Assembly: GCA_937916515.1 (NCBI GenBank)
Contig: CALFSX010000266.1
Span: 1-49,893, forward strand
Length of the DNA stretch: 49,893 nucleotides
Source: an uncultured Planctomycetaceae bacterium
Lineage (GTDB): Bacteria; Planctomycetota; Planctomycetia; Planctomycetales; Planctomycetaceae
Direction of reading: 5' to 3'
Under the pieces are notes generated by a model, which worked only from the letters and a program-made list of their open reading frames with translations, made no database searches and had not been told where the DNA came from. Made by a program: the position numbers and the translations under genes. Below, piece after piece: positions 32,712-38,466 of this stretch (within the stretch, counting starts at the first letter, position 1; the number at the start of each line of letters is the position of its first letter).

Positions 32712-33458
32712 CTAAGGTTCTTGATCAGCGGTCATCGCGATTTCGTCCGATGTGATTTCTGCAATTTTCACGCCTTCACCGTTATCAGTGCTCAGTCGAT
32801 AGACCCGATCGGCATATCGCAGGAAGTTTCCGACATCGTGGTGGCTGATCATCAGAACCTGGAAACCAAGTGCTGTACCCGCTTCGTGAACAATTTTGAC
32901 CAGTCGAGGCACAAGGTCGGGATGCAACCAACAATCCTGCTCATCCAACACCAAAAAACGGCGGTGGCGTTTGGGGTCGAGCCCCGTTACGGCAAACATT
33001 CTAAGTCCCACAGATACAACATTCGCGACGGAACCGCCTTGCCCCTTCATGATGTCTTCTGAATTCCCATTGCGTTCGATGGAGAAGTCAACATGAGCCG
33101 CGTCTCTGCGGAATTCAGCTTTGGCTTTGAATTCAATCGGTTGATCAAGAACCTCCTGTAATGCTTTCGTGATCGTCGTTTCGATCGTTCGCAGTTCTTT
33201 TTCAAACAGATCGTGACTCAGCGTTTCCAGTGCCTCGGTCACCTGGTCTGCAATGCTTAGAAAGTTTTGTATCTCATTTAATTCCTGCAGTTGCTTTTTC
33301 TGCAGGCGTTGAAGTTCCAGTCGTTTCCCCTGCAGCCGTTCAAAGCGAATTCTTGCCTGGTGTGGCGAAACTGCCATGACACCAACGTTGTCAGCTTGCT
33401 CGTTATTTGCGGCCGTATCATGTTGTGTGACGGCATTGGATTCGGGCGAGGATGACAT
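32712..33458 (-). CDS. SMC/Rad50-like ATPase, C-terminal half as a separate protein
   Basis: This 248-residue protein has the C-terminal elements of an SbcC/Rad50-type ATPase but no Walker A. Residues 1-35 are disordered. About 36-110 is a coiled coil (IRFERLQGKRLELQRLQKKQLQELNE, LSHDLFEKELRTIETTITKALQEVL). Then come the ABC-signature-like GQGGSVANVVSVGLRM, Walker B with catalytic Glu (RRFLVLDEQD), D-loop CWLHPD and the H-loop/switch (VLMISHHDVGNF). The matching Walker A half is encoded three genes upstream at 35067-36560. I infer that the two chains assemble into one composite ATP site with the phosphoesterase at 33850. The start ATG (33456-33458) is 102 bases after the small coiled-coil gene. 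It is not a fragment of a broken gene: both halves have clean starts and stops. Confidence 0.85.
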   Translation of the reverse strand: MSSSPESNAVTQHDTAANNEQADNVGVMAVSPHQARIRFERLQGKRLELQRLQKKQLQELNEIQNFLSIADQVTEALETLSHDLFEKELRTIETTITKALQEVLDQPIEFKAKAEFRRDAAHVDFSIERNGNSEDIMKGQGGSVANVVSVGLRMFAVTGLDPKRHRRFLVLDEQDCWLHPDLVPRLVKIVHEAGTALGFQVLMISHHDVGNFLRYADRVYRLSTDNGEGVKIAEITSDEIAMTADQEP

Positions 33459-33560
33459 TAAGGATGCTTGTTTGGGGAATGCTTGTCTGAATGTAGAACG
33501 GAGATTCCGTCTTCAGTTTTTGACGACCATGTAATTGATGGCGGAATTGCGAATGCGATT

Positions 33561-33869
33561 TTATGACTGTTCGTTGCTGGCTTCGATCTTTTCGAGATCG
33601 TTAACGATTCCTTCCAGCAGCGTTTGGTACGTTGAGCGTCGTTGCTCGTTTTCCGCCTCCATTTGTTTCAGCTTTTCTTCCAGCTCCGCAATGTCGTGGG
33701 TCCCGAACCTTTCAGTGGCTTCAGCCTGCAGTTTTTGCAGCTCTTTTTCAGCGTTACTGAGGTCGCTTTCGGCTCGGATTTTCTGAGTGTTAAGCTGTTC
33801 GTATTGCTTTTGTAAATCTTCAATTGTCTGCACGTCGCCGGGCGTAGTTTTACTTTGCTGTTTGGCCAT
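33561..33869 (-). CDS. Small coiled-coil protein of the split Rad50/Mre11-like cluster
   Basis: A 102-residue, highly charged protein predicted by eye to be almost entirely coiled coil: heptad-like IEDLQKQYEQLNTQKIRAESDL, NAEKELQKLQAEA, then a break at ERFGTHDIAE, then LEEKLKQMEAENEQRR and YQTLLEGIVNDLEKIE. The break could be a hairpin turn, making a two-helix antiparallel rod. The start ATG (33867-33869) has GAGGT six bases upstream and overlaps the end of the phosphoesterase gene by 20 bases, indicating translational coupling. No catalytic motif is visible. Given its place between the two ATPase halves, it may complete or bridge the short C-terminal arm of the split ATPase; that is inference. 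Confidence 0.8.
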   Translation of the reverse strand: MAKQQSKTTPGDVQTIEDLQKQYEQLNTQKIRAESDLSNAEKELQKLQAEATERFGTHDIAELEEKLKQMEAENEQRRSTYQTLLEGIVNDLEKIEASNEQS

Positions 33870-35070
33870 TGATTACCTCTTCCGCCAATCGACGCACTTC
33901 AGCGGCGACTGGTTCATCATAGTTTTGTAAATGCGATTGCAGGTAAGACATTAAACCGGCTCCCGTTTCGGTGCGTCTTGCGGTTAATTCTTTCAGGTCC
34001 GCAATAAAGCCGGAACCTCCGGGAGTGGTTTGGTCATCACCTTGTACCTGCTGGTGAAACACTTCTTCAAATGGTTTGTGAGGGACCGTAATCCATTCTG
34101 CCAGCCACTGTTGTCCGTTTTGAAGATCCAGTCGCAGTCGGTCAGTTCTGGATTCATCCGCAGTGTCGTCGCTGGCTGATCTGACGTCTGCAAGCGACAG
34201 GTTTGCGACTGGTGGGCGTAGCACAAGCACGCTGGGGCGATGTTCTCTGGAAGCATCGCTTCGACTTCGTCGTGAAATGTTCCCGGGTGTGAACCAGTGC
34301 GTGTTTTCTTTAACGACGGTTGTCAGCCTTCGATGAATGTGCCCGTTAATGATGACATCTATCCCCGGAATTGCTTTGGGTCGGATTCGTCCCCCCTCTT
34401 CGTATCCCGGAATCAAAATGTCGTGATGAGTCATCCAGACAACAAGGTCGGGGTTGTTACCGTTCGCTTCCAGTGATTTCGGAAGTCTGTTTCCCCAATC
34501 AGAGCCACCCACGATGACTCGCCGGCCAGCGACTGTCGCCACCCAGACAGATGTTTCTTCAATGCGTTTTAGATGCCCCGATCGAAACAGTACGTTGATG
34601 GAATCGTTGGACTTCAGAAAGTTCTCGCGAACATCGTGATTGCCATAAATAGCCGGAAGCGGCTCGTCGATGCAATCAATGATTTCCGCCAAAAGCCAGT
34701 TGGGATTGTCCTGAGGCAGTTGGAACACATCACCCAGGAGGAATGGTTGCAGGTTGTTGGATTTAGCATAGTTCAGGCACCAGCGAAGTTTATTCAGAAC
34801 AACTTCAGGGTAGTTGTCGCAACGAAAACCGGGCACTCGAGCTTCAAGATGTGGATCGCCGATAAACAGCAGTCCCGCAACTTCTTTGCTGGGTTGCAGC
34901 TTTTTTGCCAGTTGAACACTGGCATTTGTTTTAACAATTTCCGATGGCAATGCTTCAGCTGCCTGATGTTCAGCAGGCTCGCCGATGGTGTCTGCGCCGT
35001 CGCAATCTTTGACTGCTGAATTTTTGTCTTCAAGTTCCTCATCAGGGGTATCCGGAAACAGCAGATTCAT
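33850..35070 (-). CDS. Mre11/SbcD-like metallophosphoesterase (putative nuclease)
   Basis: A 406-residue protein of the calcineurin-like phosphoesterase fold. A non-conserved acidic N-terminus (about 1-62) is followed by the five metal-site motifs in order: LLFIGDPHLE (DxH, near 68-77), FLLGDVFQ (GD), AIYGNHDVRE (GNHD), VWMTHHDI (His) and VIINGHIHRR (GHxH). All ligands expected for a two-metal phosphodiesterase are present. The C-terminal about 120 residues are helical and may bind the ATPase, as the C-terminal regions of Mre11 and SbcD do. The ATG overlaps the stop of the N-terminal ATPase half by 4 bases (ATGA), so the two are translationally coupled. I infer a DNA-end nuclease partnered with the split ATPase. 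An RNA or nucleotide substrate cannot be excluded. Confidence 0.85.
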   Translation of the reverse strand: MNLLFPDTPDEELEDKNSAVKDCDGADTIGEPAEHQAAEALPSEIVKTNASVQLAKKLQPSKEVAGLLFIGDPHLEARVPGFRCDNYPEVVLNKLRWCLNYAKSNNLQPFLLGDVFQLPQDNPNWLLAEIIDCIDEPLPAIYGNHDVRENFLKSNDSINVLFRSGHLKRIEETSVWVATVAGRRVIVGGSDWGNRLPKSLEANGNNPDLVVWMTHHDILIPGYEEGGRIRPKAIPGIDVIINGHIHRRLTTVVKENTHWFTPGNISRRSRSDASREHRPSVLVLRPPVANLSLADVRSASDDTADESRTDRLRLDLQNGQQWLAEWITVPHKPFEEVFHQQVQGDDQTTPGGSGFIADLKELTARRTETGAGLMSYLQSHLQNYDEPVAAEVRRLAEEVINGQTAK

Positions 35071-36560
35071 GTCGATTCTCCCATCCTGGATGCTGAATCG
35101 TGGACGTGCATGCCAATTCCAGAACCTGCTGCGAGCACTCTGTTGGCGTCAAGCTTTGCTCCACAAGTGGGGCAATCCGGACTTCCGGCGACAAATTCCT
35201 GAACGGTCAGTTTGAAGTCATTCAAAGACTGAACGGAGACGGTCAGATGCTTTTCGAAATTTGCCACGTTGATGACGGAGGCTTTGATCGCCTGTAATGT
35301 ATCGGCAACTCCGGCACAGTTGTGCAATTCCGGTACACTTGTCAGTGTGCGAAAACTTTTTAGCCGGGCCTGTTGTTGCACTGTCTGAGTCGCTCGATTT
35401 CTTAGCTGTTTAATGAGCTCTGAAAGTTCACTGGTCGGTGTTTGGGGTTCTTGCACTTGAAGCCGCTTCAATGCGCGAACTTGAAGAGTGAGCTGTTGTT
35501 GCCTGGCGTTGACGGTAGGAAGTTCCTGAATGATTGCTGCCAGTCGTTCAGTAGGTGTGATTGGTGGTGGTGTTTCCAGTCGGGAAGTCACCGTGGTTCG
35601 TTGCTGTGCGTCCTGCTTCTTCAAATCTGTTTGCCGAAGCTGATTCAGTACTTCGTTACATTCTACGGCCGGATGTTGTTCCGGCGGTGGTTGCAGCAGC
35701 CTGCAAACAGACGAAATGCTGGACGCGTGAACCTGCCCTGCCAGCGTTTCTTTAAGGCTGAAGATCAGCTTGCCGGCAGAAACGACATCATGCTGTGTGG
35801 GAGGTTGTTGCAGCTGATTCAGTGCCAATGAAGACGCTGAAAGCTGGTTAACACGAAGCTGCAATTGGCCAATGCTGCGAATTAACAATTGAATTGATTT
35901 GATGGCGTCTGCAGCGGCTTCAACAGCAGCGAAGCTTTCTTCGGCGCGATCCAATTGCTGCTGGACTTCATCCATTGTTGCGAATGGCTCAAGATCCGTA
36001 GCTGTGGCAGTGGATGCAGCCGTCAGTTTCTTGAAATCTCGCTTCTGCTCAGCGACTCGCTGACGATGCCGATGCTGCATTGTTATCAAATGCGTTGCAT
36101 CAGAAGAAGATGCAAAAAACGAAGCCGCACGACTTCCCGGATCACCAAGCAGAAAAATGGGTGACTTTTGTTCGCCGAAGTGAATATCGTAGTTGCCAGC
36201 GGACTTCCCGGCTTCCGTTTCAACAGTCGGCAGCTTTAGAAGCGTTTGCAATTCCGCTGGCACTTCACTGCGCCCGAGTCGATGTACGTCTTCACCGTTC
36301 AGGGTGTAGCTGATTTTTCCGCGTTTACGATTCCAGCAGAGAACATGGCCATCGTCCGTTTCGGCTGTGATGGTGCATTCTTTTTCTCCATGCCGCACAA
36401 CGTGAGTCGATGTTGAGTTCGTCGCTAAAATCTGCAGTGCAGCCACAATTGCCGACTTGCCACAGTTGTTGGGGCCGGTCAGCACCGTCAGCCCTTCCGA
36501 CAATTCAATGACGGTGTGCTTATGCGACATGAAGTTTTGCAGCGTAATCCGTCGCAGCAT
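35067..36560 (-). CDS. SMC/Rad50-like ATPase, N-terminal half ending in a zinc-hook-like motif
   Basis: A 497-residue protein. It opens MLRRITLQNFMSHKHTVIELSEGLTVLTGPNNCGKSAIV, the N-terminal ATPase lobe with Walker A GPNNCGKSA (about 29-37). A Q-loop-like FGEQKSPIFLLGDPGS lies near 130-145. From about residue 160 an extended helical region begins. Between about 250 and 440 it is built from roughly 40-residue units, most starting RL..PP or similar (LQQPPTQ, LLQPPPEQ, LETPPPITP, QVQEPQTP). It ends with SPDCPTCGAKLD (about 459-470), a CxxC zinc-hook-like motif, and then a short tail. Signature and Walker B elements are absent and are found in the protein at 32712-33458. The natural end soon after the hook means the return arm is a separate chain. 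It is the first gene of the cluster. Confidence 0.87.
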   Translation of the reverse strand: MLRRITLQNFMSHKHTVIELSEGLTVLTGPNNCGKSAIVAALQILATNSTSTHVVRHGEKECTITAETDDGHVLCWNRKRGKISYTLNGEDVHRLGRSEVPAELQTLLKLPTVETEAGKSAGNYDIHFGEQKSPIFLLGDPGSRAASFFASSSDATHLITMQHRHRQRVAEQKRDFKKLTAASTATATDLEPFATMDEVQQQLDRAEESFAAVEAAADAIKSIQLLIRSIGQLQLRVNQLSASSLALNQLQQPPTQHDVVSAGKLIFSLKETLAGQVHASSISSVCRLLQPPPEQHPAVECNEVLNQLRQTDLKKQDAQQRTTVTSRLETPPPITPTERLAAIIQELPTVNARQQQLTLQVRALKRLQVQEPQTPTSELSELIKQLRNRATQTVQQQARLKSFRTLTSVPELHNCAGVADTLQAIKASVINVANFEKHLTVSVQSLNDFKLTVQEFVAGSPDCPTCGAKLDANRVLAAGSGIGMHVHDSASRMGEST

Positions 36561-37559: not shown

Positions 37560-38102
37560 ATGAATATTTTGATTCCCGGGCTCGGCGGATCGTCCGAAAC
37601 GCATTGGCAGTCGTTGTGGGAACTGCAACGTCCCGAATCGTTTCTGCGTGTCTCACAGGAAGACTGGAACAAGCCTGATTGCACTGTCTGGGTGGACAAA
37701 ATTCAAACCGTCCTGGAATCGCTGCCGCTGGAACAGCTTGTACTTATTGGGCACAGCGTGGGATGCGCGGCTGTTGTGCACTGGCTTCAGAAGTATCGAC
37801 ATGCAATCAAAGGCGTCCTGTTGGTCGCTCCCAGTGATGTCGAACGGGCTGACTATCCAACTTATATTACCGGTTTTGTTCCACTGCCGCTTTCTAAGTT
37901 GGCGTGTCCCGGGATCGTGGTGGCCAGCAGCAACGATCACGTCGTTGATCCCATTCTAGCCCGGTACTTTGCAGAATGTTGGGGGTGCGAGTACGTCGAA
38001 GTTCAGAACGCTGGTCATTTTGAACCATCCGCCGGGTTTGGAGAATGGCCGTTTGGATTAACGTTGCTTGATCGCCTTATTCAAACTGCTTCGGACGATT
38101 GA
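37560..38102 (+). CDS. RBBP9/YdeN-type serine hydrolase
   Basis: A small cytosolic alpha/beta-hydrolase of 180 residues, the usual length for the RBBP9/YdeN (DUF1234-like) family. The ATG at 37560 is selected because MNILIPGLGGSSETHWQ is the canonical opening; an in-frame extension to 37431 is unrelated. The triad is visible: Ser in LIGHSVGCAA (about residue 66), Asp in SSNDHVVDP, and His in NAGHFEPSAGFGEWPFG. The typical trailing G-EWP after the His is present. The physiological substrate is unknown. The last 26 bases overlap, in convergent orientation, the end of the HEFAH gene on the other strand. Confidence 0.93.
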   Translation: MNILIPGLGGSSETHWQSLWELQRPESFLRVSQEDWNKPDCTVWVDKIQTVLESLPLEQLVLIGHSVGCAAVVHWLQKYRHAIKGVLLVAPSDVERADYPTYITGFVPLPLSKLACPGIVVASSNDHVVDPILARYFAECWGCEYVEVQNAGHFEPSAGFGEWPFGLTLLDRLIQTASDD

Positions 38103-38466
38103 ATCCCCATGAAGCAGCCAGTGCATCTGCGGCTTCTTCAATGTCGGTGATGTCTCCCCAGCCGCCGTTTCTAAGAATCGCGTGAGCAAATTCGTGAGCA
38201 ATAACGTAGAGGGCGAACCGTTCTGAGCAATCATTCAGCTTCGGACGCAAGACGACTCGACGACTACCCTGTCCCGGTGGACCGGGTGTGGGCATGAAAA
38301 GGGTCCATCCAATTCCTGGCTCGTAGTTGTCAATAGCCGTGCCAAAACGCGGGTCGTCCAGAAAATCACGCTGCGCTTCCACGGGAAGTTGTGTCAGCAC
38401 ATGCAGTACTCGCTGTTGCAATATCGGATATGCGGCAAAGGGAGCGACATAGTCTGAAAAGTCCAT
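38077..38466 (-). CDS. Small putative zinc metallopeptidase-like protein (HEFAH)
   Basis: A 129-residue protein. The central motif VIAHEFAHAIL (about residues 87-97) is a gluzincin-type HExxH. EEAADALAASWGF, some 20 residues later, could supply the third ligand (Glu), as in ImmA/IrrE-like peptidases. The N-terminal half (residues 1-60) is short for a full protease domain, so it may be a minimal or regulatory form. The ATG is at 38464-38466. Its 3' end overlaps the hydrolase gene at 37560-38102 by 26 bases tail to tail, which could allow antisense pairing of the two mRNAs. No partner repressor is adjacent. It is real by composition and motif but its function is unknown. Confidence 0.75.
   Translation of the reverse strand: MDFSDYVAPFAAYPILQQRVLHVLTQLPVEAQRDFLDDPRFGTAIDNYEPGIGWTLFMPTPGPPGQGSRRVVLRPKLNDCSERFALYVIAHEFAHAILRNGGWGDITDIEEAADALAASWGFNRPKQFE

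Follow-up and report, generated by a model that had tools for sequence, protein, structure and literature searches.

The four genes considered here lie in the window, by which we mean the complete 49,893-nucleotide contig CALFSX010000266.1 (assembly GCA_937916515.1) of an uncultured Planctomycetaceae bacterium, the genome of which measures 8.3 Mb and is 99% complete. All four open reading frames (ORFs) are on the minus strand, as are the features located within them, and each has an ATG start. They encode, in order, the N-half of an ATPase (35067-36560), a phosphoesterase (33850-35070), a small coiled-coil protein (33561-33869), and the C-half of the ATPase (32712-33458). The N-half and phosphoesterase genes overlap by 4 nucleotides and the phosphoesterase and coiled-coil genes by 20, and a gap of 102 bases separates the coiled-coil gene from that of the C-half. 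A preliminary description had reported these frames, overlaps, and motifs as a split Rad50/SbcC-like ATPase with an Mre11-like phosphoesterase, and our coordinates and read-back of the DNA agree with it. We propose that the locus very probably encodes an Mre11-Rad50-type complex, serving recombination or the processing of DNA ends, with its Rad50 ATPase split over two separately encoded chains.

The N-half, a protein of 497 residues, comprises a Rad50/SMC-type N-lobe (with Walker A and a Q-loop region), a long helix at residues 155-248, a modular arm, and a CPTCG hook near the C terminus. Pfam places it with AAA_15 (E = 1.8e-13) and AAA_23 (E = 2.3e-13). Its Walker A, GPNNCGKS (36453-36476), was confirmed by DNA read-back, and G29, N31, N32, G34, K35, and S36 are invariant in 38 aligned rows; H127, Q131, and P134 are likewise invariant, on the same two grounds, in HFGEQKSPIFL (36150-36182), which we take to be the probable Q-loop region. 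The arm, with ~39-residue units and proline linkers (35184-35816, from model helices, PP spacing, and read-back), ends at a CxxC motif (CPTC, 35163-35174). This is a putative zinc hook, and its C463 and C466 are invariant in 38 rows, from which two hookless sequences (L052 and L063) were left out. The C-half has 248 residues, a single helix at 32-104 and then a C-lobe with three read-back motifs conserved across 38 aligned rows: an ABC (ATP-binding cassette) signature-like GQGGS (33030-33044; G139, G141, G142, and S143 invariant), a Walker B FLVLDE in which both acidic residues are retained (32940-32957; D172 and E173 invariant), and an H-loop SHH (32838-32846; S205, H206, and H207 invariant). 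The rows nearest the window C-half belong to a Planctomycetaceae bin and to three Fuerstiella records. The ATPase motifs (Walker A, signature, Walker B, and H-loop) are all present, but they are divided over two chains, and the N and C lobes are two genes rather than a single chain in which a connecting coiled coil folds back at the hook.

The phosphoesterase (406 residues as called) is of the Mre11/SbcD-like calcineurin-fold kind, matches Metallophos in Pfam (E = 5.6e-7; 30.6 bits against a cut-off of 21.5), and carries the metallophosphoesterase motifs GDPH (34849-34860), GDVF, GNHD, THHD, and NGHIH (34333-34347), the two located motifs being supported by alignment and read-back. The window protein was not among the matches of the SbcD model (TIGR00619) at E up to 1. 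Because its first ~60 residues are not common to the relatives aligned, the real start may lie further in than called. GDPH, GNHD, and NGHxH are retained in 14 of 16 aligned phosphoesterases, the window's among them, and the THHD position varies (AHHD, AHHN, and THLD). The small coiled-coil protein (102 residues) has an FGT-like break mid-protein. A match to its profile adjoins the C gene in 65 of 80 loci and the gene stands as a separate one on plasmids; as judged from sequence, we regard it as a conserved third member of the set. Neither this protein nor the C-half exceeded any cut-off in the Pfam search.

Do the two halves make one head? AlphaFold models of both were built from the 38-row alignments. 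The C-half model (predicted local distance difference test score [pLDDT] 87.5; predicted template modeling score [pTM] 0.68) shows a single 73-residue helix, residues 32-104, ahead of the C-lobe, and the N-half model (mean pLDDT 76.6; pTM 0.31) shows a helix of 94 residues at 155-248. In Foldseek searches, the N-half matched 1f2u_C, 5h66_A, and 9a9j_A among Rad50, SMC, RecF, and RecN heads, and the C-half matched 1f2u_B, 5h66_B, and 9a9j_B. In each of three entries (1f2u, 9a9j, and 5h66), the two models match separate chains, and on this basis the halves resemble lobes that complement each other within one Rad50/SMC-type head. The first of these entries belongs to the Pyrococcus furiosus Rad50 ATPase crystals 1F2T/1F2U; we take its chains to be separately expressed N and C fragments of Rad50, so that the split there is a laboratory construct, whereas the split in the window is natural. 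These complementary matches, together with plasmid ORFs that hold both lobes, uphold the earlier view that the halves belong to related ATPase families. We infer that Walker A of the one chain and the signature, Walker B, and H-loop of the other make one ABC head. Assembly of the halves in the cell is a prediction, one that is strongly supported by the genomics. No NCBIfam SbcC/Rad50 model scored over its cut-off, the best reaching 43.6 bits against 1000 (Rad50_Sulf).

Genome contigs were scanned with the pattern LDE[QAP]DCW[LI], which returned 190 stretches with 183 relatives, and the best 80 were kept as loci. The order N-half, phosphoesterase, small coiled coil, C-half on one strand recurs in 60 of the 80; five loci are cut by contig ends, and 15 have C alone, two of these at contig ends. 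The genes are therefore neighbors elsewhere, as the preliminary description would have it. Of the 13 genomes in which an unlinked C lies away from contig ends, mostly bins of unknown completeness, 11 have an N elsewhere in the genome, and there the phosphoesterase adjoins N in 10 and the small gene in 7. By parsimony on a quick tree, four linkage changes are needed, or three if the two N-less genomes are dropped. In a further sample of the phylum (244 genomes; E up to 1e-15), C was detected in 16 genomes, one of which is our own, and N in 17. Every carrier of C also has N and keeps the four-gene order, and 9 of the 16 are single-contig genomes. Across 50 loci, the distances of the genes are correlated with one another (Mantel r of 0.64 to 0.85, against maxima of at most 0.18 in 300 permutations). 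By record titles, the carriers belong to Planctomycetota, Thermodesulfobacteriota, Myxococcota, Pseudomonadota, Poribacteria, Sumerlaeota, and Bacillota; most are metagenome bins, and isolates, e.g., two Desulfacinum, are also found. Thalassoglobus neptunius (L059) and Rhodopirellula rubra (L039) are carriers among environmental isolates of planctomycetes. With these seven phyla and the phages described below, an unverified impression in the preliminary description that similar sets exist in other phyla proves correct.

Natural fusions tie the two halves together. On plasmids of Bosea, Variovorax, Alteromonas, and Aeromonas, a C-lobe is followed by an N-lobe in a single ORF of 576 to 656 residues, i.e., in reversed order, with CxxC near the C-terminal end (in the four ORFs read). 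A small gene precedes the fusion ORF in all four; the small-subunit profile matches it in three, and in Alteromonas it was recognized only by eye. Among plasmid records with N matches (17) or C matches (21), C lies just before N by coordinates in all 16 that have both, several of these records being near-identical and the ORFs having been read in 4 of the 16. A Brevibacillus plasmid (L006) shows another arrangement, with the phosphoesterase fused to the N-lobe and the C-lobe separate.

Phages carry versions of the set as well. Microcystis phage Mvi-JY20 has the same order of N, phosphoesterase, a 94-residue protein, and C, with profile E values of 7.1e-21, 5.4e-11, 6.8e-6, and 2.2e-10, respectively, in a filter-free search of those four proteins only, in which the C profile also gave the small protein at 6e-4. 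Pfam assigns AAA_23, Metallophos, and AAA_21 to N, phosphoesterase, and C of this phage, and genes with RecA and Toprim/DnaG-type (primase-like) domains lie just upstream of N; by eye, the phosphoesterase motifs are partly altered (GQHD and GDTHAG). In Bacillus phage vB_BboS-125, the N and C profiles match gp32 (annotated as an exonuclease; E = 2.6e-32) and gp35 (annotated as an ATPase; E = 5.3e-15) in a search of six proteins, among which no phosphoesterase or small-subunit profile match was found. The halves of this phage are thus like those of the window but have an AP2 gene and a 78-residue protein between them, and a Holliday junction resolvase and a helicase are nearby. An uncultured 485-kb phage has N, phosphoesterase, and C within ~8 kb, and the window halves match separate PHROG families, 16465 (exonuclease) and 15167 (ATPase). 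Viral contigs scanned with two alignments yielded no relatives, and Tunturi_5 gp23, a suspected N-half, was rejected. One planctomycete contig (L142, G214:C21) has an N-half and phosphoesterase amid genes that are phage-like by eye (RecA-like and HNH-like) and is perhaps a phage contig binned into a metagenome-assembled genome.

The arm appears to be built of modules. CxxC is found near the C-terminal end in 48 of 50 N-halves with Walker A (as a motif only, the zinc hook being putative), and in those with both Walker A and hook, 19 to 46 residues follow the hook. The distance from Walker A to hook clusters at 311-317, 348-356, 387-392, 430-431, 467-480, and 627-630; the values 441 (found twice) and 507 fall outside these clusters, in the gaps. 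The 25 distinct distances fit best to a period of 39.75, with a strength equaled in none of 1,000 uniform draws; the loci are related, and hence this test is indicative. Consistent with such a period, 100 of 120 PP spacings in the arms of 51 sequences, the window's included, fall at 38-42 (a mean of 0.69 of 17.0 in shuffled arms), and the letter autocorrelation of the arm peaks at lags of 39 and 78. In the model, the window arm forms helices at 259-287, 298-325, 339-345 plus 347-365, 377-405, and 416-459, so that most units consist of one 28- to 29-residue helix and a linker, with one unit broken and the final helix 44 residues long; several linkers have pLDDT below 50. Candidates for a return strand are the 73-residue helix of the C-half and the small subunit of ~100 residues; for the longer arms, neither seems to offer a return strand of equal length. 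A sequence search of the arm of one relative (L083) against solved structures gave no match at E up to 1. By eye, the two hookless N-halves (L063:3401-5665 and L052:450-1889) have in common another C-terminal segment, and L063 also has a likely membrane helix.

In the mechanism that we posit, the N-half would supply the N-lobe, arm, and hook and the C-half the C-lobe, and the two chains, once translated, would fold with each other to form a single ABC head. As in Rad50, a pair of these heads would bind two ATPs, held between Walker A of one head and the signature of its partner. The 73-residue helix of the C-half would pair with the start of the 94-residue helix of the N-half to form a short neck, past which the arm would run on through successive modules of ~39 residues, most of them a single helix, up to a CxxC hook that could dimerize via zinc. 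The phosphoesterase would be the nuclease, the small coiled-coil protein would be a third subunit, probably bracing the neck or the arm, and the complex would clamp and trim DNA ends in recombination or repair. This last function, the clamping and processing of ends, we infer from the phage context and from an anatomy like that of Mre11/Rad50. We also lean, if only somewhat, toward the further proposal that the set is a distinct Mre11-Rad50 branch, having a one-chain arm of ~39-residue helical modules, altered in length by whole modules and lacking a matching return strand, and a small coiled-coil subunit that supports the neck. In such a branch, nothing must return from the hook, and evolution would therefore be free to divide the head between two genes, to separate these in the genome, or to join them in reverse, the arrangements seen in bacteria, phages, and large plasmids.

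Several observations weigh against a split Mre11-Rad50-type complex as proposed. The fold matches span the wider Rad50/SMC/RecF/RecN group, the top match of the N-half being a cohesin head, and with a pTM of 0.31 the path of the arm is not fixed by the N-half model. N was not found in 2 of the 13 genomes with an unlinked C (G039 and G042) or in two genomes with C at a contig end (G052 and G053), and the seventeenth genome with N in the phylum sample (G214) has the phosphoesterase but no C that we could detect. The 16 carriers represent six genera only and share some contigs with the 80 loci, so the samples are not independent, and correlated gene distances are also expected from plain joint inheritance. 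The small-subunit profile fails to reach the proteins of Alteromonas, Brevibacillus, and vB_BboS-125. Among 88 mechanically called ORFs next to the full loci (50 of the 60, ten close relatives being excluded), no Pfam family occurs in more than 3, and no recurrent repair genes lie next door in bacteria. Finally, the metal motifs are lost in the other 2 of the 16 aligned phosphoesterases, those of the Alteromonas and Aeromonas plasmids, where the genes are nevertheless still in place (L002:6056-6832 and L001:6320-7093). Because of this loss, nuclease activity appears not to be needed in every relative.

Could the complex instead act structurally, by tethering or clamping DNA and not as a nuclease, with a phosphoesterase that is mainly architectural? 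The two plasmids, which hold a motif-less phosphoesterase gene in position, favor such a reading, and we allow a tether role for those two systems; as a general account, it is rather improbable given that GDPH, GNHD, and NGHxH are retained in the other 14 phosphoesterases, including that of the window. Somewhat less improbable, though still unlikely in our estimation, is an anti-phage or anti-plasmid defense complex with a Lamassu- or Wadjet-like role, with the split Rad50 as the sensor of DNA ends or hairpins and the phosphoesterase as the attacking enzyme. The distribution is patchy (16 of 244 genomes), PADLOC models match the N-half (AriA, LmuB, GajA, mad3, and many more) and the C-half (best, mad3 at 8e-11), and the Rad50-like LmuB is a known defense protein (PMC10586767, in the parts consulted). 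However, these models catch generic ABC lobes, as a neighboring ABC transporter that matches mad3 at 1.4e-26 makes plain. Among the 88 neighbors, each PADLOC family (best 25 of 49), Cas1 models included, matches one member only, and the phage copies sit near replication-recombination genes. Moreover, the Walker B glutamate is retained here, whereas LmuB generally has Gln at that place (same excerpts of PMC10586767).

Two further alternatives question the split itself. It is conceivable, but very doubtful, that the halves do not form one head and that the C-half is a separate regulator or the partner of another ATPase. The 13 loci of 80 with an unlinked C, and the 2 of those 13 genomes in which N was not found, point that way; the plasmid ORFs with both lobes in one chain, the complementary fold matches, and the co-occurrence of N and C point to a single head. 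That the cluster is an sbcC broken by decay or a frameshift, or a product of misassembly, is next to inconceivable. SbcC/Rad50 is normally one chain, and 5 of the 16 C matches in the phylum sample were flagged as having an internal stop, but the flagged stops are the gene's own end, which the matches overrun, and the C frames are open across the domain with all motifs present. In addition, dN/dS (the ratio of nonsynonymous to synonymous substitution rates) is below 1, at 0.010 to 0.385 across 13 close pairs for every gene with finite dS (three values of the pair L069/L076, with saturated dS, were left out), and the layout recurs in 60 of 80 loci, in the 9 single-contig genomes, and in the Microcystis phage. 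On decay and on misassembly, the preliminary description was right to see an intact cluster: all 16 carriers in the phylum sample keep the order.

How does a split Mre11-Rad50-type complex compare with known systems? Like SbcC-SbcD and Rad50-Mre11, the window set has ABC lobes, a CxxC hook, and a calcineurin-fold partner encoded in an operon; unlike them, it has the ATPase in two chains and an extra small coiled-coil subunit. The hook is near the C terminus of the N-half, not mid-chain as in Rad50, and the modular arm has no equal return strand in the C-half. Because the one-chain ATPase was looked for and two chains were found, we do not file the set as a standard SbcCD member; it stands apart from that family, yet is of the Mre11-Rad50 kind. 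In the parts of Yoshida et al. 2011 (PMC3175470) consulted, Mre11/Rad50 fusion proteins are described from Mimivirus, plasmids, and Bacillus phage 0305phi8-36. In these, as in the Brevibacillus plasmid protein, a phosphoesterase is joined to a Rad50 N-lobe; those parts do not describe a separate C-lobe gene, reversal, or arm modules, and the word "split" is absent from the main text. They do note a missing NTPase segment in two fusions, one from a phage and one from a bacterium, which the split or reversed pattern may explain. Lamassu LmuB is likewise a Rad50-like ABC protein, often hooked, but is described in the excerpts of PMC10586767 as one chain with other partners and with the Walker B Glu generally replaced. 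A single-chain LmuB with LmuC and LmuA was not found in the window: the best LmuB match is to the N-half only (model positions 5-344 of 611), and neither LmuA nor LmuC is among the PADLOC matches listed for the four proteins (for the N-half, the best 25 of 95 families). SbcCD is called practically universal in jumbo phages in the consulted text of a review (PMC7824862), the passages of which on jumbo-phage SbcCD do not mention a split SbcC, and the literature searched, mostly at title and abstract level, turned up no description of Rad50 in split or permuted form.

The Rad50/SbcC machine for DNA repair is conserved widely and is usually portrayed as a single folded-back chain. If our reading is true, the split, the reversed fusion, and the modular, hook-ended arm would together mean that the return strand is dispensable, and nature would have provided arm-length variants for probing arm function. 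Truncated-looking half-ATPases in annotation could also be explained, and Rad50 proteins that seem broken in other records may each be half of a split pair. The reversed fusions, the modular arm, and the small coiled-coil gene as a conserved third member had not been seen in the preliminary description.

Does the set replace canonical SbcCD? SbcD exceeds its cut-off in 19 of the 244 genomes and in none of the 16 carriers, where ~1 is expected by chance, so this comparison is not decisive. In our own genome, the SbcC model (TIGR00618) gives nothing over its cut-off, which only 1 of 14 control genomes passes, and there is one SbcD match below the cut-off (25.5 against 77.65 bits), which only 8 of the 14 controls pass. 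The same genome has ten AAA_23 matches, four of which were examined: the window N-half, an SMC (contig C81), and ATPases on contigs C301 and C62. The C301 protein (L033, G000:C301) is a large AAA_27-type ATPase beside an SbcD-like ORF, as judged by profile; that of C62 (L129, G000:C62) was judged YhaN-like, and it and its neighbor resemble those of C301, by eye only. PDDEXK_1 matches in long frames may represent an AddAB-like enzyme.

Outside close relatives, no family recurs among the bacterial neighbors, so that the set behaves like a self-contained cassette. A reading of the neighborhoods as defense islands was set aside, as Pfam and PADLOC searches of the 88 neighbors lent it little support. 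In each of the two Desulfacinum genomes, a large ORF lies directly downstream of the set (L111:7663-10533 and L113:7808-10573), and the two ORFs belong to one similarity cluster. In the window itself, a few genes from the four described here, a small protein at 38077-38466 has a sub-threshold match to SprT-like metallopeptidases.

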